Shown piece after piece: positions 24,624-33,648 of a stretch of DNA of 64,000 bases (its first letter is position 1; each line of letters starts with the position of its first letter). Source of the stretch: Falsarthrobacter nasiphocae. Its GTDB lineage: Bacteria > Actinomycetota > Actinomycetes > Actinomycetales > Micrococcaceae. Position numbers and translations under genes: made by a program. The stretch is taken from positions 992,001 to 1,056,000 of the forward strand of contig NZ_JAVDUI010000001.1 of NCBI RefSeq assembly GCF_031456275.1. Direction: 5' to 3'. Under the pieces are notes generated by a model that saw only the letters and a program-made list of their open reading frames with translations, searched no databases and was not told the DNA's origin.

Positions 24624-25763
24624 CTACTCCCGGAGGAGGCGGGCGGGGTCCACCCGCGTCGAGGCCACCGCCGGCAGCATCCCGGACACCGCCCCCAGGC
24701 CCGCCCCTGCCAGCGGCAGCAGCGCGATCCACCAGGGCTGCAAGTGCGGCCACCCCTGCACCAGCGCCACGAGTTCCCCCGCAAGCAGCCCCACCCCGAG
24801 CCCGAGGACCGTCCCGAGCCCGCCCGTGATGGCGGACTCGGCCAGGAACAGCCGGCCCACGCGCCACCTCGAGGCCCCCAAGGCCCGGTCCAGGCCAATG
24901 AGCCGCCGCCTCTCCCACACCGCTGACTGCATGGTGGAGTACACGCTCACCGCGCTCGAGACGCAGAGAACCAGCACGGTGATGAGGACCATGTCGCGGC
25001 TCTCCCCGAGCAGCTTCGCCTTGAGCGACGACGCCGAGACGGGCCGGGTCACGCGGGCGGCCTCCGGCTCGTACGGCCACGCGGAGACGGCGAGGTCGTG
25101 ATCGGCGGGCCCGTCGTCGTCGGCAGCGATGAGGAGGGGGCGGTCCGTGGTGACGTCCGCCATGATCTCACTGCCCACGGGCCAGAGGACGGAGCCGCCG
25201 AGGAGGGCGGCCTCCCCGCGCCCCTCAACAACCCCCGTGACGGTGACCCAGCGCCCCTCGGCAAGCAGGCGGTTCCGCCCCGGCTCCGGCCACACGCCGA
25301 GCGTGCGCGCCGCACCCGCCCCCACGAGGACCTGGCGGCCGTCGGCCCGAAGTGACGCGGTTGAGGGCCACCCGCCGGCCACGAGACGCCCGCCGCGCGC
25401 CTGAACGCCCTCGGCGCTCGTGACAATGTGGCCGGTCTGCCCCTGACTGGTCTGGGTGCTGACGTCGCGGCGCTGCCCCTCGAACATCGGCATGTAGGTG
25501 CCGGCCGCGCGGAGCCCGGGCAACTGCCGCAGCCGCCCAACGGCGCGGGACTCGTCCTCCTCCCAGCCGCCCAGGTGCCCCGGGACGCTGACGATGAGGG
25601 AGCCGCTGCTCAGCCCGGCGAGGTGCTCGGCGGAGCGGTGGGCGGACCCGCGCGTCACGGCGAGCATGGTCACGAGCGTGGCGGTGCCGATGAGCACCGT
25701 CAGCACGCTGAACACGGTCCGTCCGGGCCGGCGCCACACGTTGATCCACGCCTCACGAAGCAT
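24624..25763 (-). CDS. ABC transporter permease, FtsX/MacB type
   Basis: A 379-residue membrane protein. One N-terminal helix (FSVLTVLIGTATLVTMLAV) precedes a large extracellular domain (about 45-250), then three C-terminal helices. This is the topology of MacB/FtsX permeases, which move periplasmic or envelope substrates outward by mechanotransmission. The cytoplasmic loop RRRLIGLDRALGASRWRV is the usual coupling segment. The ATG at 25763 overlaps the end of the ATPase gene by 11 bases. With the ATPase and membrane-fusion protein it forms a MacAB-like exporter. Confidence 0.85.
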   Translation of the reverse strand: MLREAWINVWRRPGRTVFSVLTVLIGTATLVTMLAVTRGSAHRSAEHLAGLSSGSLIVSVPGHLGGWEEDESRAVGRLRQLPGLRAAGTYMPMFEGQRRDVSTQTSQGQTGHIVTSAEGVQARGGRLVAGGWPSTASLRADGRQVLVGAGAARTLGVWPEPGRNRLLAEGRWVTVTGVVEGRGEAALLGGSVLWPVGSEIMADVTTDRPLLIAADDDGPADHDLAVSAWPYEPEAARVTRPVSASSLKAKLLGESRDMVLITVLVLCVSSAVSVYSTMQSAVWERRRLIGLDRALGASRWRVGRLFLAESAITGGLGTVLGLGVGLLAGELVALVQGWPHLQPWWIALLPLAGAGLGAVSGMLPAVASTRVDPARLLRE

Positions 25764-26421
25764 GGCCCACCTGCCCGTCCACAACCCGAAGGGCTCGGCT
25801 GCACTTGGCCGCAAGCCCCGGGTCGTGGGTCACAATGACGACGGCCAGGCCCGAGCCCGCCTGCGCGAGCAGCAGCTCCAGCACGGCGGAGGCCGTGGCG
25901 GTGTCGAGGTTGCCCGTGGGCTCGTCGCAGAGGAGGACTCGCGGCTGCGCGGCGAGGGCCCGCGCGATGGCCACTCGCTGCCGCTCGCCCCCAGAGAGGG
26001 TGGGCGGCCGGGCGTCCAGGCGGTGTGAGAGGCCCACAGAGTCCAGGGCTTGCTCGGCCCGCGCCCGCCGCAGCCGAGACGGCACCCCGCGGATGGCGAG
26101 GGCGTGCTCGACGTTCTCCCGCGCGGAGAGGTGGTCCACGAGGTGAAACGCCTGGAAGACGAACGCGAGGTGCTCGCGCCTCAGCCGGGTGAGCTCCCGC
26201 TCGGACGCGCCCGCGGTGTCCACCCCGGCGATGGTGCGCTGCCCCTCATCCGGCGCCTCGAGCAGGCCCAGCATGGCGAGCAGCGTGGACTTCCCCGATC
26301 CGCTGGGCCCCACGATGGCGAGGGCCTCCCCCGCGTTCACGTCGACGTCCGCGTCTCGGAGCGCCACGGTGCTGGGCGGGTACCGCTTCCACACGCCGCG
26401 CAGGGTGATCTCGGAGGTCAC
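25753..26421 (-). CDS. ABC transporter ATPase, MacB/LolD type
   Basis: A 222-residue ATPase with Walker A VGPSGSGKSTLL, Q-loop FQAFHLVDHL, signature LSGGERQRVAIARAL, Walker B VLLCDEPTGNLDT and H-loop VTHDPGLA. QAFHLVDHL and EPTGNLD are typical of the LolD/MacB/FtsE subfamily that drives FtsX-type permeases. The start is GTG at 26421, overlapping the fusion-protein stop (GTGA). The frame extends upstream without ATPase features. Confidence 0.9.
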   Translation of the reverse strand: MTSEITLRGVWKRYPPSTVALRDADVDVNAGEALAIVGPSGSGKSTLLAMLGLLEAPDEGQRTIAGVDTAGASERELTRLRREHLAFVFQAFHLVDHLSARENVEHALAIRGVPSRLRRARAEQALDSVGLSHRLDARPPTLSGGERQRVAIARALAAQPRVLLCDEPTGNLDTATASAVLELLLAQAGSGLAVVIVTHDPGLAAKCSRALRVVDGQVGHAS

Positions 26422-27767
26422 CGTTCGCTCTTCGGCTCGGTGGCCGGCGGGAGTGTCTCGCCCACGACGATCCGGGTCCCCGCCTTCAGGCCTCCCGTGC
26501 GGCGCGGCTCGACGGCGCATCGGCCTGCGGTGCACAGCCCGACGCGGACCTCCTCGTCCTGGCCGGCTTCGGTCCTCACCCACGCTCGCTCGCCCTCGCG
26601 GCGGACGGCCGTGGACGGCACGACGAGCGAGTCGGCCGGGGACTCCGCAATGGTGATTGTGGCCGTGAGCGTCCCGCCCGCGGGCGGCGGCGCGTCCGTC
26701 CCCTTGAGGGTCACGCGGAACGTCGCGGGGCCTGCGGGTCCGCTGGATCCGGCCGACGACGGCGCCTGCGGCAACGCGCCCCCGCCGTTCTGCTGGCCAC
26801 TCTCCGGCGGGGTGCTGGGCTGCCCGCTTCCGCCGCTCCCCCCTGGCCCACCGCCCCGGGACTGCGGGCCGGCCTGAGGCCCGGTGCCGTTCTGCGATGC
26901 CGGGCCGCTCTGGGACGGCGCACCGCCGCCCGGGGCGTCAGGGACAGTCCCGGCACGCCCATTGAGACGCCCCTCCCAGCGCTTGGACCCGCTCGTGATG
27001 ACAACCTTCTCCGTCCCCTTGACCCGCGCCGCCTCCGAGGCCTGCACGTTCACGACGAGCTCCCTCCCACCGGATGCCACCGTGCACAGCGCGCCCTGGA
27101 CGGCCTGCCGAGTCACGCCGCACTGGGTGAGGACGCGCATGGGCAGCGAGGCCGCCATGAAGGCCTCGCCCCGCACGAGGGCTGCGTCATCGTCGCCTTC
27201 TGCGGCCGGAATAACGGACCCGTCCGCGCGGACGGGAAGGTACCCGATGTCCCGCCACAGGCGCCCGAGGGAGCGGGCCGTCTCCGGGCCGAAGACGCCC
27301 CTCTCCACGCCCCAGGCGCGCCCCAGCAGCGCAAGCGAGTCCTGAACGCGCGCGACGTCCTGCCCCCGGTCCCCCTGCTTGAGCGTCCGGTACAGGGGCG
27401 CCTCCCCTGTGAGGACGACGACGGGCCTGCCGTTGACCTCGGCCACCACGGCGCCCAGGCTGGCCTCGCTTCCGGCCGCCGCGCCGGTTGCGGTGAACAC
27501 GGCGTTTCCCTCGACGGGCGACGGGACGGGCTCTGCGCCTGTGTCGATAGTCTTGGCGTCCGCGGCAACGGACTCGACCACCTGGGCGCGCTGAACCGTG
27601 TCCACGATGGCACGGGGGGCCGCGTCTTCACGGCGCTGCCCCGACTGATCTGCCGTGACGGCACCGACTCCGATGAGGACAAGCCCGATCCCGGCGGCCA
27701 GCGCGGCCAGGACGGTCACGATCCGCAGGAGCGTCACCGTGGCGGTACGTGTGCGGGAGGTGCTCAT
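26418..27767 (-). CDS. Peptidoglycan-binding membrane-fusion (adaptor) protein of the exporter
   Basis: 449 residues: an N-terminal membrane anchor (about 13-38), an extracellular alpha/beta region, and a peptidoglycan-binding-like segment (about 128-175, LKQGDRGQDVARVQDSLALLG then FGPETARSLGRLW). A barrel-like region, a long Gly/Pro/Gln/Ser linker (about 272-340) and a C-terminal barrel with LVVPSTAVRREGERAWV follow. HlyD-like barrels plus a PG-binding repeat are typical of Gram-positive MacA-type adaptors. It overlaps the ATPase by four bases and lies 62 bases after the lipoprotein gene. Confidence 0.85.
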   Translation of the reverse strand: MSTSRTRTATVTLLRIVTVLAALAAGIGLVLIGVGAVTADQSGQRREDAAPRAIVDTVQRAQVVESVAADAKTIDTGAEPVPSPVEGNAVFTATGAAAGSEASLGAVVAEVNGRPVVVLTGEAPLYRTLKQGDRGQDVARVQDSLALLGRAWGVERGVFGPETARSLGRLWRDIGYLPVRADGSVIPAAEGDDDAALVRGEAFMAASLPMRVLTQCGVTRQAVQGALCTVASGGRELVVNVQASEAARVKGTEKVVITSGSKRWEGRLNGRAGTVPDAPGGGAPSQSGPASQNGTGPQAGPQSRGGGPGGSGGSGQPSTPPESGQQNGGGALPQAPSSAGSSGPAGPATFRVTLKGTDAPPPAGGTLTATITIAESPADSLVVPSTAVRREGERAWVRTEAGQDEEVRVGLCTAGRCAVEPRRTGGLKAGTRIVVGETLPPATEPKSER

Positions 27768-27829: not shown

Positions 27830-28693
27830 TTACTCGCTCAGAATCTTCCGGGCGCGCTCAAGAGACTCCTGCGTGAGAGTGCTCAGCTCGACGATCTTCT
27901 CCTCGTTGCCCCGGGCCCACGAGCCCAGGCCGTCGAGAACGGCGTTGTCCACGTCCTCGCGGATGTTCTCGGCCTTCTGGCAGGCGACGTCCTGACGGAT
28001 CATGGCCTTCTCTTCCTCGTGGACGGGCGCGCCATCAGCCCGGTACTGGCCCCATTTCTCAGCGGCAAGCTTGGGCGCCTCGCCGAGCTTGACCGGGTAG
28101 CCCGCTGCCTTCATGCACTTCTCGTACCCGTAGGCGGCCGACTTCAAGGACTTCTCCGCCCTCTTCATTGCGTCTGTCGCGGTGCGGGGAGCCTCGTTAA
28201 AGAAGTTCTCGATACGCATGGAGGTTACGAGGTCTCCGTACACGGCCTTGCGTGCCTCGGCCACACAGCCTTCGCTATCGACACTCACCTCCAATCTTTC
28301 CAGCCTCACGGATACTTTCTTCGCGGGATCATCGGGGCCAATGACCCTCCGTCTTTGTTCAGCCGTCATGCCCTCGGTCGAGCTTGATTCCTCGCGTACG
28401 GTGCTCGGGTATCCAATCCTGACGGCGAGTTTCTCCTCGGGAAGGATGCCGCTGAACCCAGCAATGGAACCGAGCACGGGACCGCTAAAGGGAATCTTCT
28501 TGCTCCACCCCTCCTTCCGGGCGCACTCGTTGAGGGACTTCTCGAGTGCCGCACTGAGCTCCGGCGGAGGCAACAGGAGGGTCCGTGTCTGCGAACGAAG
28601 CGGCTCATCAAGGGGCTGCTTGAAGGCCGCGCAGGCCGTTGCGGACATTGTCACTGCGAGAATGGCCACCACGGCCTGCGCTTTCTTTCTCAT
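27830..28693 (-). CDS. Lipoprotein of an unassigned family (paralogue B)
   Basis: A 287-residue predicted lipoprotein: MRKKAQAVVAILAVTMS, then the lipobox ATAC. The mature part is helical and charged. It shares with the protein at 29635-30540 the landmarks ECAxKxGW, GCxAEAxKxVYG, NFxNE, KCMxxAG and a C-terminal WxRxNE ... LERAR. These include four conserved non-lipid cysteines, suggesting two disulfides. I chose the ATG at 28693, five bases after the stop of the secreted-protein gene. Its DNA is less GC-rich than its neighbours. It probably works with the downstream exporter, perhaps as immunity or receptor protein. No function is known to me. Confidence 0.75.
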   Translation of the reverse strand: MRKKAQAVVAILAVTMSATACAAFKQPLDEPLRSQTRTLLLPPPELSAALEKSLNECARKEGWSKKIPFSGPVLGSIAGFSGILPEEKLAVRIGYPSTVREESSSTEGMTAEQRRRVIGPDDPAKKVSVRLERLEVSVDSEGCVAEARKAVYGDLVTSMRIENFFNEAPRTATDAMKRAEKSLKSAAYGYEKCMKAAGYPVKLGEAPKLAAEKWGQYRADGAPVHEEEKAMIRQDVACQKAENIREDVDNAVLDGLGSWARGNEEKIVELSTLTQESLERARKILSE

Positions 28694-28698
28694 GTGAC

Positions 28699-29043
28699 TT
28701 AGCCCCACCACGTGGTGAAGTAGTCGATCTTGTCGCTCGCTTCCCACAGATTCGCGTAATCTGCGTAGCGATTTGCAGTCATCTCAATCGTCGAGACGCC
28801 CCACATGACGTTGTTCCGACCGTAGATCGTATTATCACGCTGGTTCTTGATCGAGGAGGTCCGGTTCTGCGGAACCCACATCACGGTGGGATTTCCCTCG
28901 ACATGAACCAGCAGCTCCCGGTAGTTCACGTGATCGAAGGCCTCGAAGTAGTCGGCCGATGCAGGAGTGGATGCCCCAACGGCCAGGCCGGTCGCCAGCA
29001 TGGCTGCACATGCTGCCTTGACTCCCTTGTTGATGAAGGCCAC
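28699..29043 (-). CDS. Small secreted protein, possibly beta/gamma-crystallin (I36 inhibitor) like
   Basis: A 114-residue precursor. Its signal peptide (about 1-29) ends STPASA, so the mature part of about 85 residues begins DYFEAFDHVNY. The mature part is aromatic-rich and ends DYFTTWWG. QNRTSSIKN and EASDKIDYF resemble the two (N/D)xxxSS motifs of beta/gamma-crystallin domains, as in I36 peptidase inhibitors; this is tentative. The GTG at 29043 is chosen because AGGAAGGAGG lies just upstream, although the frame is open further. It is the first gene after promoter copy 1 and leads the exporter operon, so it is a candidate exported effector. Confidence 0.7.
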   Translation of the reverse strand: MAFINKGVKAACAAMLATGLAVGASTPASADYFEAFDHVNYRELLVHVEGNPTVMWVPQNRTSSIKNQRDNTIYGRNNVMWGVSTIEMTANRYADYANLWEASDKIDYFTTWWG

Positions 29044-29132
29044 GATTGCCTCCTTCCTGAGGCCGAGCGACATGTCCCAACCTCGGACTCATGCCCCCTC
29101 TCGACGAGGTACGAGAGGTTCGTGATGAAGAA

Positions 29133-29162
29133 CTTATATCATTCGTTCTTGCAACCAGTCAA
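29133..29162 (-). promoter_or_regulatory. Sigma-A-type promoter of the secreted-protein/exporter operon
   Basis: On the minus strand, -35 TTGACT (29157-29162) and -10 TATAAG (29133-29138) are separated by 18 bases. Transcription should start near 29126, about 83 bases before the GTG at 29043. There is no other good promoter before the exporter genes. Confidence 0.75.
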
Positions 29163-29201
29163 CACCAACGCCCCGCATCCCCCTCGCCCACCTCCTCCCC
29201 A

Positions 29202-29269
29202 CCCCGTTGCGCGACGACTTTGAAGCGAGAATCACGCCCCAAGCGCGCGAAACCCGCCCCTCAACGGGG
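29202..29269 (-). repeat. Dispersed palindromic element, copy B
   Basis: A 68-base element with perfect terminal inverted repeats CCCCGTTG and CAACGGGG. It is very close to copy C (30696-30763) and more distant from copy A (1688-1753). Confidence 0.7.
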
Positions 29270-29288
29270 GACGGGAGGGCACGCAAAA

Positions 29289-29315
29289 GCGGGGCCCCTT
29301 CACAGAGGACCCCGC
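29289..29315 (-). terminator. Terminator of the upstream lipoprotein transcript (copy 1)
   Basis: A GCGGGGCCCC / GAGGACCCCGC hairpin is followed on the minus strand by TTTTGCG. It is the counterpart of the clpC terminator at 30793-30820. Confidence 0.75.
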
Positions 29316-29353
29316 CTGCTCAGCGCTGCCCCGCGGTGGCAATGCTCCCGGTC

Positions 29354-29622
29354 TTACCAACTCACGTGCCCAGCCACGAACTCCCGGGCATCCGCAAGGC
29401 CATGGAAGACCGCGGGAGCGCCGGGACGGCACTTCATCGTGCGGACTCGAACTCCTTGAAGGTGTTGTCATTGCTGACTCGCGGACGAGTGAAACTCTTC
29501 CGCACTCCCAGGACCGCGAGGAACTCAGTCAACAAATTTGAGCGCACGGCCGAGCCTGAATCCGAATGGACCACATCCGGGATGACCCCTCCGGCAGAGG
29601 TGATGGCCTGCGCGAAAATCAC
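29354..29622 (-). pseudogene. Relic of a DDE (IS3-type integrase core) transposase
   Basis: The minus-strand frame from 29622 encodes VVHSDSGSAVRS, then GVRKSFTRPRVSNDN and a Glu, matching the integrase-core signature HSDxG ... SxSRPxxSNDN ... E. It stops at 29434-29436. One base out of frame the homology continues as RPGAPAVF, then LADAREFVAGHVSW, before a stop at 29354. The piece therefore covers only the C-terminal part of a transposase and has a frameshift. Its 5' end is cut off by the neighbouring lipoprotein gene. It is non-functional and sits between the two duplicated cassettes. Confidence 0.75.
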
Positions 29623-29634
29623 CCGAGCCGCGCG

Positions 29635-30540
29635 TCACCGCGACCCCAAGACAGTCCGGGCCCGCTCAAGCGCCGCTTGCTTCTTCTCCCTCAGGCCCAG
29701 GATGCGCTTTTCGTTGTCCCGAACCCACGCCCCGGCCACCTCGAAGTAGGCTTCATCGAGCTTCTGAGCCAGCCCAACTTTCTCTTGGCAGCCACCGTCA
29801 GCACGCGCCAGCTCCAGCTCACGTCCGGCGGGACGCTCCCCAGGCTTCCGCTTCGGGGATACGTTCTTCTCGGCCCAATCCCTCGCCTGGCCGAACTTGA
29901 TGTCGAAGCCTGCCTCGGACATGCACTTTTGATATTCTGGCGCCGCCTTTCTCAGCACCTTTTCATACTTGCTGAGGTCCTTCTGTCCGGATGGCAGAAC
30001 TTCGTTTATGAAGTTCGTCAGGCGAAGGGCATCCTCCAGGGAGCCATACACTTTCTTCTGCGCTTCGGCATGACACCCCGTACTCGCCGTCGAGACGACC
30101 GCCCCGCCAGGGAGCGCAACCTTCGTCTTCGGCTCATCATCCTGAGATGGCCCGCTCGACGAGAACCCCATAATGGATTTCTCCTGGGATTCACTCATCT
30201 GAGGCCGCGGTGTATCGTCATCCGCAGCACTGGAGTAGCCCCACCTCTCAGCCTCTTTGGAGCTTCGCCAGACGTCGGGGACGCCCGTCACTGACGAGGG
30301 GCCGCCGCCATGCTGAAGGTGAACCCCATGAGTCCACCCATACTTGAGGGCGCATTCGCTCGTCAGAACATTGATAGCCGCCCCCACTTCGGGGTCTCTG
30401 TTCATGAGATCCACAACGGCATCCCTGCTCACCTGACTCGTCTCCACTGGCACCGGCTGTGAGCATCCAGTCAGCATCAATACGGCCAGGGCACATGCCA
30501 CCGGGCCACCCCTCCGGCCTCCGCGGCCCATGAAGGTCAT
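29635..30540 (-). CDS. Lipoprotein of an unassigned family (paralogue A)
   Basis: A 301-residue predicted lipoprotein. The signal ends in lipobox LTGC (MMTFM... region, then ALAVLMLTGC). The mature protein shares ECAxKxGW, GCxAEAxKxVYG, NFINEV, KCMSEAGF, GGCQ and WVRDNE...LERARTVL with the protein at 27830-28693. It has a Ser/Asp-rich insert (about 95-140). The ATG at 30540 is chosen for its AGGAGG eight bases upstream. It is a single-gene unit between promoter copy 2 and the terminator of copy 1. Function unknown. Confidence 0.75.
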   Translation of the reverse strand: MTFMGRGGRRGGPVACALAVLMLTGCSQPVPVETSQVSRDAVVDLMNRDPEVGAAINVLTSECALKYGWTHGVHLQHGGGPSSVTGVPDVWRSSKEAERWGYSSAADDDTPRPQMSESQEKSIMGFSSSGPSQDDEPKTKVALPGGAVVSTASTGCHAEAQKKVYGSLEDALRLTNFINEVLPSGQKDLSKYEKVLRKAAPEYQKCMSEAGFDIKFGQARDWAEKNVSPKRKPGERPAGRELELARADGGCQEKVGLAQKLDEAYFEVAGAWVRDNEKRILGLREKKQAALERARTVLGSR

Positions 30541-30627
30541 CAAAGCCCCCTCCTACGACCGAGCTGCGCCACCCGACCCTCGCACCAACACCCTCTCGAA
30601 CGTGCACGAGAGGTTCGTGATGAAGAA

Positions 30628-30657
30628 CTTATATCATTCGTCTTTGCAACCTGTCAA
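30628..30657 (-). promoter_or_regulatory. Sigma-A-type promoter of lipoprotein A
   Basis: On the minus strand, consensus -35 TTGACA (30652-30657) and -10 TATAAG (30628-30633) have an 18-base spacer. The expected start is near 30621, with a leader of about 80 bases. Confidence 0.8.
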
Positions 30658-30695
30658 CAACAACACCCCCTGCCCCCTCGCCCACCTCCTCACCA

Positions 30696-30763
30696 CCCCG
30701 TTGGGCGGCGACTTTGAAGCGAGAATCCCGCGCCAGGCGTGCGAAACCCGCCCCGCGACGGGG
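30696..30763 (-). repeat. Dispersed palindromic element, copy C
   Basis: A 68-base element beginning CCCCGTTGGGCGGCGAC and ending CGCGACGGGG on the plus strand. In reverse complement it aligns with copy A without gaps. Confidence 0.7.
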
Positions 30764-30792
30764 GCCAAGTAGGGACGGGAGGACACGCAAAA

Positions 30793-30820
30793 GCGGGGCC
30801 CCCATCACAGGGGACCCCGC
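30793..30820 (-). terminator. Terminator of clpC
   Basis: GCGGGG and CCCC pair with GGGG and CCCCGC with one mismatch. On the minus strand TTTTGCG follows. It lies about 75 bases after the clpC stop. Confidence 0.8.
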
Positions 30821-30893
30821 CTTGCTCAGCGCTGCGCCGACGACGCCCAGCAGACCGGAGCGCTACCGGCCGCGCAGCGCTGCGCCAGAACCG

Positions 30894-33536
30894 CTACAGC
30901 GTGCCCGGGCCGCGCTCGTTCTCCACGGCCCGCGCGGACAGCCCGCCCGGCGCCTGGAATGCGGACGAGCCCGAGGACCGCGGCACCCGCGTGGTGTCCT
31001 TCTCGAACTCGTCGATCGGCTCCACGACCTCCGGCGCCTCAACCGACTCGGCGTCGTTCTCCGCAGTCCGGGGCTCGGAGCTGAACGTGAACTCGGCGTC
31101 GTCGCCCTCTCCCTTGACGTCCACGGAGATGTGGTGACCCTCGAGGATCTCTCCGAAGAGGATCTTCTCGGAGAGCTGGTCCTCGATCTTGGTCTGGATG
31201 GTGCGGCGGAGGGGCCGGGCACCCATGGCCGGGTCGTAGCCGAGGTTCGCGAGGCGGATCTTCGCGGCGTTCGTCACCGAGATGGTCATGTCCTTCTCCG
31301 CGAGGCGGCGGGCCAGGCGGCGGATGAAGAGGTCGACGATCTGGACGATCTCCTCCTCCGTCAGCTGCGGGAAGACGACGACGTCGTCCACGCGGTTGAG
31401 GAACTCCGGCCGGAAGTGCTGCTTGAGCTCCTCGTTGACGCGGGCCTTCATGCGCTCGTAGTTGGTCGTCGAGTCCGTCGAGGACTGGAAGCCCGTCTGG
31501 ACCGGACGCGAGGCATCCCGCGTTCCAAGGTTGGTGGTCATGATGATCACCGTGTTCTTGAAGTCCACCACGCGGCCCTGCGAGTCCGTCAGGCGGCCGT
31601 CCTCCAGGATCTGGAGGAGGGAGTTGAAGAGGTCCTGGTGTCCCTTCTCAACCTCGTCGAAGAGGACCACGGAGAACGGGCGACGACGGACCTTCTCGGT
31701 CAGCTGGCCGCCCTCCTCGTAGCCCACGTATCCGGGAGGGGCACCGAAGAGCTTGGAGACGGTGTGCTTCTCCGCGTACTCAGACATGTCAAGCGTGATG
31801 AGCGCGTCCTGGTCCCCGAAGAGGAACTCCGCGAGGGCCTTGGCGAGCTCGGTCTTGCCGACGCCCGTGGGGCCCGCGAAGATGAACGAGCCGCCGGGGC
31901 GGTTGGGGTCCTTGAGGCCGGCACGCGTGCGCCGGATGGCGCGGGCGATCGACTTGATGGCCTCGTCCTGGCCGATGACGCGCTTGTGCAGCTCGTCCTC
32001 CATGCCGAGCAGACGCGAGGACTCCTCCTCGGACAGCTTGACCACGGGGATGCCGGTGGACTTGGAGAGGACCTCGGCGATGAGGTCGGCGTCGACGAGC
32101 GCGGACTGGTCCGAGCCGCCGTTCTTCCACTCCTCCTCGCGCTCGGCGCGCGCCTTCGTGAGCTTGGACTCCTCGTCACGCAGGCTGGCCGCGCCCTCGA
32201 AGTCCTGCTCGTCGATGGCCGCTTCCTTCTTCTTGCGGACGGCCTCAATCTCCTTGTCCATCTCCTTGAGCTCGGCGGGCGGCGTCATGCGCTGGATGCG
32301 CAGGCGGGCGCCGGCCTCGTCGATCAAGTCGATGGCCTTGTCCGGGAGGAACCGGTCCGAGATGTACCGGTGGGCGAGGGAGGCCGCGGCCTCGAGGGCC
32401 TCGTCCGTGATGGTCACCTTGTGGTGCGCCTCGTACTGGTCACGCACGCCCTGGAGGATCTGGAACGTGAGCTCGACGCTCGGCTCCGCGACCTGGATCG
32501 GCTGGAAGCGGCGCTCAAGCGCCGGGTCCTTCTCGATGTGCTTGCGGTACTCGTCCAGCGTGGTGGCTCCGATGGTCTGGAGCTCGCCGCGGGCCAGCAT
32601 CGGCTTGAGGATGCTGGCGGCGTCGATGGCGCCCTCCGCCGCGCCGGCACCGACGAGGGTGTGGATCTCGTCGATGAAGAGGATGATGTCACCGCGCGTG
32701 CGGATCTCCTTGAGGACGCCCTTGAGGCGCTCCTCGAAGTCACCGCGGTACCGCGAGCCGGCCACGAGGGAGCCCAGGTCAAGCGTGTAGAGGTGCTTGT
32801 CCTTGAGCGTCTCGGGGACGTCGTTGCGGACGATCGCCTGGGCGAGGCCCTCGACAACGGCCGTCTTTCCGACGCCCGGCTCGCCAATGAGGACGGGGTT
32901 GTTCTTGGTGCGGCGCGAGAGGACCTGCATGACGCGCTCCATCTCGTGCTCGCGGCCGACGACGGGGTCCAGCTTGTGGTCCCGCGCCGCCTGGGTGAGA
33001 TTGCGGCCGAACTTGTCCAGCACCGTGGAGCCTGCGGGCTGGCCCTCTGCGCGGCCGCCGCCTGCGCCTGCACCGACGCCCGCGGTCTCCTTGCCGCCCG
33101 GGTAGCCCTGGATCATCTGGACGACGGTCTGGCGGACCTGCCCGAGCTCGTGGCCGAGCTTGACGATGACCTGCGCGGCCACGCCCTCGCCCTCACGCAG
33201 GAGGCCGAGGAGGATGTGCTCGGTGCCGATGTAGTTGTGGCTGAGCTGGAGGGCCTCGCGGAGCGAGAGCTCCAGGACCTTCTTGGCACGCGGGGTGAAG
33301 GGGATGTGGCCGCCCGCGCCCTGCTGGCTGGGGCCGATCATGTCCTGGACCTGCTCCCGCACGGCCTCGAGGGTGATGTCCAGCGAGGCCAGGGCCTTGG
33401 CCGCAATGCTGTCCCCCTCCTGGATCAGGCCGAGCAGGATGTGCTCGGTTCCGATGCAGTTGTGGTTGAGGGTGCGGGCCTCTTCCTGGGCCAGCACGAC
33501 AACCCGGCGGGCTCTGTCCGTAAAGCGTTCAAACAC
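30894..33536 (-). CDS. clpC: ATP-dependent Clp protease ATPase ClpC
   Basis: An 880-residue AAA+ unfoldase that feeds substrates to ClpP. It has an N-terminal double Clp repeat (about 1-145), a Gly-rich linker, AAA1 with Walker A GEPGVGKT (about 217-224), a UVR/M-domain (about 420-460), AAA2 with Walker A GPTGVGKT (about 552-559), and a C-terminal acidic tail. The GTG at 33536 gives the normal start [20 protein letters not shown] and has AAGGAG eight bases upstream. Its promoter overlaps an inverted repeat, suggesting stress control. The gene is highly conserved. Confidence 0.97.
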
Positions 33537-33568
33537 GCGGCACACTCCTTGCTCTGACGTTGGCTTTG

Positions 33569-33611
33569 ACTCTACGCAACCGGCCCCGCGCTCTTGCGGG
33601 TTGTTCGCAAG
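33569..33611 (-). promoter_or_regulatory. clpC promoter with overlapping inverted repeat
   Basis: On the minus strand -10 TAGAGT (33569-33574) is preceded, 18 bases upstream, by CGCAAG at the -35 position. That hexamer is one arm of a perfect repeat, CTTGCG-N7-CGCAAG (33593-33611). The arm length and 7-base spacer recall HAIR elements bound by HspR (CTTGAGT-N7-ACTCAAG), though the sequence differs. Confidence 0.55.
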
Positions 33612-33648
33612 CGGTGGAATCACTCGGGTGGCCGGGAGGCGACGAGAA

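Follow-up and report, generated by a model that had tools for sequence, protein, structure and literature searches.

How two neighbouring gene units came to stand behind nearly the same control DNA is the question raised by a locus on the minus strand of the window, which is the whole 64,000-nucleotide stretch of Falsarthrobacter nasiphocae DNA that was analysed. An earlier note on this DNA had described two nearly identical segments of about 235 bp, each with a terminator, a palindrome and a promoter, and had proposed that this control DNA was duplicated together with a lipoprotein gene and then kept alike by selection or gene conversion while the coding sequences diverged much further. The locus was compared with the rest of its genome, which is one contig of 2,195,465 bases, and with a sample of 59 genomes of relatives that includes two congeners, G001 (82% complete, 400 contigs) and G002. 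In minus-strand order the features are as follows.

30894..33623, minus strand: clpC (Pfam AAA_2, 7.9e-70; Clp_N, 2.4e-30), whose 3' end supplies the block 2 terminator
30592..30839, minus strand: block 2, holding the next four features
30789..30820, minus strand: predicted clpC terminator T2, a stem-loop with TTTT (-28.0 kcal/mol)
30691..30764, minus strand: palindrome P2 (77.8 bits to covariance model R1; nearest copy P1, 88%)
30628..30657, minus strand: putative promoter 2, with TTGACA, an 18-base spacer, and TATAAG preceded by TGA
30592..30613, minus strand: leader hairpin 2, CCTCTCG-N8-CGAGAGG, directly after promoter 2
29635..30540, minus strand: lipA, predicted lipoprotein with a lipobox-like LTGC, labelled from its sequence, with no Pfam or NCBIfam match
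29434..29622, minus strand: remnant of an IS3-type transposase, between lipA and block 1
29096..29330, minus strand: block 1, holding the next four features
29285..29315, minus strand: predicted terminator T1, a copy of the clpC terminator (-22.2 kcal/mol)
29197..29270, minus strand: palindrome P1 (79.4 bits to model R1)
29133..29162, minus strand: putative promoter 1, with TTGACT, an 18-base spacer, and TATAAG preceded by TGA
29097..29118, minus strand: leader hairpin 1, CCTCTCG-N8-CGAGAGG, directly after promoter 1
28699..29043, minus strand: secP, small protein with a signal-peptide-like start, 45% to a G001 protein over 119 aa
27830..28693, minus strand: lipB, predicted lipoprotein
26418..27767, minus strand: MacA-like protein, labelled from gene order, with no Pfam match
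25753..26421, minus strand: ABC transporter ATPase (PF00005, 7e-34)
24624..25814, minus strand: FtsX/MacB-type permease (PF02687, 3.8e-14; PF12704, 2.3e-10; both above cut-off)

The two blocks, of about 235 bp each, are real and closely alike, as the earlier note had said. With copy 1 as the query, copy 2 is recovered at E=1.9e-74, query bases 17-254 of 261 aligning at 85% identity, and a repeat search splits the pair into pieces, among them ones of 84, 87, 89 and 97%. Likeness extends from the terminator (38/40, 95%) through the terminator-palindrome gap (18/19, 95%), the palindrome (65/74, 88%, in an alignment with 10 gap columns), the palindrome-promoter gap (29/33, 88%) and the promoter (27/30, 90%) to the segment from the -10 element to the hairpin end (32/37, 86%). 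At both ends the homology stops abruptly: the terminator is flanked on its upstream side by a stretch with 8/16 matches, and the lower leader matches at 33/52. An assembly artefact, the outcome that the earlier note had named as fatal, was considered and rejected: the genome is one contig, the copies are set apart by indels and by differences at about 15% of sites, and since a copy made by such an artefact would be near-identical, this origin is hardly credible. Besides the terminator, palindrome and promoter, both blocks hold a leader hairpin; this hairpin, the IS3 remnant between lipA and copy 1, and the genome-wide repetition of the palindrome are features beyond those described before.

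The string TTGAC-N15..17-TGATATAAG has two matches in the 2,195,465-base genome, and these are exactly promoters 1 and 2, so that the description of two gene units behind nearly the same promoter holds. None of 200 shuffles was as stable as the T1 hairpin, nor any of 200 as stable as that of T2. An automatic consensus scan of 28600-31000 returned no promoters and three other terminator-like sites, missing both promoters and both terminators because its rules require a final T in the second hexamer and 5 T in 8 bases after the stem. Judged from their sequences, both blocks would be expected to have promoter and terminator activity, and the near-identical promoters make a common sigma factor and regulator plausible. 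The loops of the leader hairpins differ between copies 1 and 2, and G001 has at about the matching place a stem of other letters, CCCCTCC-N10-GGAGGGG; the three hairpins are only mildly stabler than shuffles (z of -1.1, -1.9 and -0.6). That a stem is conserved though its letters change favours an RNA hairpin over a fixed DNA operator, and the hairpin probably protects the mRNA 5' end.

The two lipoprotein genes are older than the likeness of the blocks. LipA and LipB are 31% identical (94/298 aligned columns). In a tree of 10 lipoprotein homologs, LipA groups with the LipA of G001, to which it has 70% amino acid identity, and with Lip4 of G002 (support 95/96), and LipB joins three further lipoproteins of G002 (96/97), in a tree that leaves four inner branches open and in which the long rows G010 and G034 are unsure. 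The tree indicates that the LipA/LipB split is an older one, common to the congeners and predating the block copy. The unequal divergence of genes and block therefore needs no special selection, and the proposal that the control DNA was duplicated together with the lipoprotein gene is not supported.

G001 has the order clpC, secP, lipA, broken lipB, macA, with a single promoter and gaps too short for a second cassette, and its clpC-secP gap has a different terminator and lacks a palindrome match. None of the 59 genomes of relatives was found to have two cassettes. Amino acid identity of clpC is 88% to G001 over 884 aa and 91% to G002 over 882 aa, the pieces of the broken G001 lipB are 57, 78 and 64% identical to LipB, and its macA is 75% over 285 aa. 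In G002 (L032:10235-13868), four tandem lipoprotein genes lie between clpC and macA, an additional partial lipoprotein match lies beyond ftsX, and a search for SecP gave no match. A contig of Arthrobacter sp. UM1 (Micrococcaceae) matches the G002 stretch letter for letter over 16,184 bases, and a contig of the metagenome-assembled genome Arthrobacter sp. bin6, which has the macA end, abc and ftsX at 68, 80 and 86% amino acid identity to the window, may belong with G001. The start of lipB carries an inverted repeat (28629-28681) over the signal peptide codons, with 24-base arms that are 83% complementary and a 5-base loop. The predicted structure of LipA has a pLDDT of 83.1 (AlphaFold, six sequences); compared with PDB folds, none of its 66 matches reaches E 0.001 (best 3.2), and its sequence profile returned only seven ferritin matches, at E 0.053 or worse.

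A trace of the earlier arrangement may be retained at the start of lipA. The lipA start, ATGACCTTCAT, resembles the secP start, GTGGCCTTCAT, and that of G001 secP, ATGGCCTTCAT. When the c2 start region (63-73 bases; c1 and c2 denote blocks 1 and 2) is aligned globally, 0/2000 shuffles do as well against c1 and 4/2000 against G001, and in local alignment the figure is 1/2000 against each. Without the ribosome-binding site and start, the c2 lower leader is not significantly similar to either (6% of shuffles for c1 and 32% for G001, global), so part of it may be unrelated DNA rather than old leader. Because the lipA start resembles secP starts, it is likely, from what is a short trace, that the upstream unit once began with secP and has since lost it. 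The secP start itself is likely GTG, to judge from the G001 alignment; a longer frame begins at 29073. The IS3 remnant matches PF00665 (E=1.8e-6, 28.6 bits, cut-off 32.6) and NF033516 (E=1.2e-6, 28 bits, cut-off 160) and has 79% protein identity to four copies within 372-aa frames elsewhere in the genome.

The palindrome within the block belongs to a family that occupies at least 32 places of the genome (61 matches of model R1, which was built on 11 copies, both strands counted), a lower bound given that only 125 of 2408 first-look candidates were scored. This number of places rules the palindrome out as a private operator. A further copy of the 74-bp palindrome lies in the window at 1686-1759, and 29 more places lie elsewhere in the genome. 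Matches at E<=0.1 occur in 4 of 39 genomes, namely this one, G002 (27 matches, 18 places), G007 (one match) and G008 (two matches, one place); a search of G001, which is 82% complete, gave no match. The 30 places outside the blocks comprise 15 convergent gaps, 11 codirectional, one divergent, one inside a gene and two with a neighbour missing, counts that are approximate because the crude gene caller used for them overlooks AT-richer genes (lipA, for example, is uncalled). The convergent share of 15/27 compares with 8/38 for window gaps of at least 70 bases (Fisher p=0.008); a binomial p of 9e-5 treats the 38-gap background as exact. The family is certainly palindromic, with 85.5% of pair cells paired as against 37-51% when the arms are slid. 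Shuffles give 84.2% paired cells (23/500 as high), and the other measures are further pair types (4/500 as high), the covariation score (13/500) and changes on both sides (cells 16/500, pairs 130/500); RNA-level covariation beyond the column make-up is modest.

Dispersed, intergenic and enriched in convergent gaps, the palindrome is a REP-like element that prefers gene 3' ends. Repetitive extragenic palindromes (REPs; PMC3733652, PMC12306157) of the GTAG/CGTC superfamilies are short, 20-40 bp, and have GTAG or CGTC as a tag at one end. The present family differs in being about 66-74 bp long (74-bp model, outer stem columns 3-68), and such a tag or its complement stands within 12 bases of an end in only 2/29 copies, which places it outside those superfamilies. 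In an Rfam search of 28600-31000 the sole match was a microRNA family, at 28.6 bits against a gathering score of 76, and the titles and abstract beginnings of the literature searched do not mention the family, which does not prove that it is undescribed. Of the 406 palindrome pairs compared, P1 with P2 is the most alike (88%; the next best for each is 73% and 76%), and copies elsewhere average 69% alike. The palindrome was therefore copied along with the block and not inserted twice, and it is probably a passenger brought along with the clpC 3' end.

A three-way alignment of c1, c2 and G001, the sole outgroup for this comparison, gives the history of the tract. From promoter to hairpin, c1 and c2 agree at 59/67 positions (88%), c1 and G001 at 37/67 (55%), and c2 and G001 at 41/67 (61%), c2 being slightly closer to G001 than c1; in the lower leader through the second codon (29095-29038) the corresponding values are 32/56 (57%), 42/58 (72%) and 31/56 (55%). 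The drop in c1-c2 identity between the two tracts has a Fisher p=1.5e-4, and the opposite change for c1-G001 reaches only p=0.06. The tract thus differs in history from its flanks: the promoter-hairpin segment groups c1 with c2, and the lower leader groups c1 with G001. Unequal rates would yield a mosaic signal of the same sign, and one outgroup is a thin base. Because the promoter-hairpin segment is only 55-61% identical between species, its 88% identity within the genome is not mainly long-term constraint. Of the two causes proposed earlier, gene conversion gains from the mosaic, which makes it a live explanation, and selection loses ground to the divergence from G001; recent copying or gene conversion is the better reading of the block's identity.

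Taken together, these comparisons argue that the block was copied within the lineage, or homogenised by gene conversion between two older units, a reading to which we give a probability of roughly 0.6; conversion between two older units, considered alone, has about even odds. Control DNA beside diverged paralogs is known to undergo gene conversion or segmental duplication, and the known cases share with this one a high-identity block, abrupt edges and a history unlike that of the flanks. Here, however, it is a whole terminator-to-leader unit that is repeated, beginning inside the neighbour's terminator. A plain recent tandem duplication of the terminator-to-lipA segment from a G001-like ancestor, with no gene conversion, is quite possible, though we would hold it at less than even odds. 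From the G001 order one duplication and two deletions suffice, and the copy of the clpC terminator after lipA is accounted for. Such a history would need later loss of secP upstream and of lipA downstream, as well as a fast-changing upstream lower leader, and a leader that switched genes may indeed change fast; yet the lower leader is the slower tract between c1 and G001 (72% vs 55%), whereas in the comparison of c1 with c2 it is the faster (57% vs 88%).

Acquisition of the lipA unit with its own cassette by horizontal transfer from a relative, beside a resident unit, is unlikely. It would fit the low GC3 of lipA, secP and lipB (0.71, 0.74 and 0.78, as against 0.93 for clpC and 0.87-0.93 for the exporter genes and clpC), the IS3 remnant at the junction, and the patchy spread of the lipoprotein, homologs of which are found at E<=1e-5 in 13/396 sampled genomes of the order, this one included. 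The resident lipB and secP are also low in GC3, however, so that lipA does not stand out, and no donor with such a cassette appears among the 59 relatives. Strong purifying selection that preserves the likeness of the copies in terminator, palindrome and promoter would explain why promoter hexamers, spacer length, terminator stem and leader stem are all retained, but it is quite improbable in view of a promoter-hairpin segment merely 55-61% identical to G001, a G001 clpC-secP gap with another terminator and no palindrome match, and the 69% average among palindrome copies elsewhere.

Under the copying or conversion of the block, the clpC terminator, dispersed palindrome, extended -10 promoter and leader hairpin would have moved or been converted as one piece, leaving lipA and the operon secP-lipB-macA-abc-ftsX as two units behind a nearly identical promoter. 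Each block's terminator would end transcription of the upstream unit and its promoter would start the next, T2 insulating clpC from lipA and T1 insulating lipA from the secP operon. The near-identical promoters would place both units under the same basal control, and the leader hairpin would stabilise both messages. In such a scheme LipA would be made separately from, yet in step with, SecP, LipB and the exporter, and the two units may well be regulated in common. LipA and LipB are old paralogs, and the upstream unit would have lost secP, so that lipA would now begin at the secP-type start site.

Together the genes make up an islet of a MacB-type exporter, lipoproteins and a small secreted protein. 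PF02687, PF12704 and the partner PF00005 all score above cut-off, as expected of a MacB-type exporter, and the MacA-like homologs in L031 and L034 score 20.1 and 21.6 bits to PG_binding_1 (cut-off 23). Against NCBIfam, the ABC ATPase stays below every cut-off (best LolD, 196.5 vs 307.75). In PADLOC, 4/6 proteins have no match; the 18 families matched by the ABC ATPase, with mad3 the best at E=1e-31, and the single one matched by the permease are taken as reflecting shared ATPase and permease domains. SecP has no Pfam family at E<=10 and only an unrelated weak NCBIfam match (E=0.13), and its AlphaFold model from a single sequence is uninformative (pLDDT 32.6). For inhibitor family I36 (PF03995, cut-off 21.1) SecP gives no match, and below the cut-off lie a paralog at L031:7552-7887 (18.9 bits) and the G001 SecP (13.2 bits).

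A second islet in the same genome (1,181,551-1,186,206; L031:7552-12207) has two tandem SecP-like genes, a lipoprotein, MacA-like, ABC and FtsX genes, and its small genes are low in GC3. A third, more distant set (L124:2133-7440, within 1,098,000-1,112,000 of the genome) has two adjoining lipoprotein homologs and a MacA-like gene, and a single frame there is matched by the ABC as well as the FtsX model. The decamer GAACGAATGA of promoter 1 recurs upstream of the second islet, and the 12-base pattern GAACGAATGAYA, defined after the shared decamer had been noticed, occurs at only two genome places, 29137-29148 and L031 7518-7529, upstream of secP in both islets. The alignment of promoter 1 with that upstream stretch is not significant (8.7% of 5000 shuffles as good; shuffling the other side instead gives 7.4%), copy 2 has just 8 bases in common with it (54% of shuffles), and G001 aligns elsewhere (2.9%); the likeness is a lead only. 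A scan with models of the five proteins found lipoprotein, macA, abc and ftsX in 7/14 stretches (L031, L032, L034, L124, L126, L127 and L129, the first three of which contributed to building the models) and a lipoprotein without macA and ftsX in six; L033 has a lipoprotein and SecP up to its contig end, and macA was also found there by a separate search.

A lactococcin 972-type locus is arranged as a small exported protein, an ABC ATPase and a membrane protein, and the islet resembles it in having all three. It differs in its additional lipoproteins and MacA-like protein and in that SecP has no Pfam or NCBIfam bacteriocin match; its ABC ATPase scores 181.7 bits to the lactococcin 972-type exporter model TIGR03608, below the cut-off of 254.85. 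The bacteriocin itself is described in PMC8538875. The islet may be a competition or envelope system in which the lipoproteins serve for immunity or as receptors; to see it as a competition system with immunity conferred by the lipoproteins is a guess from gene order and low GC3. The titles and abstract beginnings of the literature searched yielded nothing on the islet, which is no proof of absence. Only tentatively, and as a doubtful alternative, might the locus be seen as an undescribed Micrococcaceae exported-protein system. It would combine one or two small secreted proteins and one to four lipoproteins with a MacA-like adaptor and a MacB-type exporter, and its lipoprotein set would be reshuffled beside clpC, with the block as a recombination handle that provides every lipoprotein unit with a matching promoter of its own.

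That a terminator-promoter block should be copied or converted next to old paralogs is fairly ordinary genome evolution, an event of a known kind. No curated model in the libraries searched captures the secreted protein, the lipoproteins or the palindrome, and the locus brings to notice a small family of lipoprotein/secreted-protein islets with a MacB-type exporter, together with a 74-bp dispersed palindrome family. It is also a warning that promoters of neighbouring paralogs may be near-identical and yet mislead: the genes here are old, and the control DNA that they share is young.
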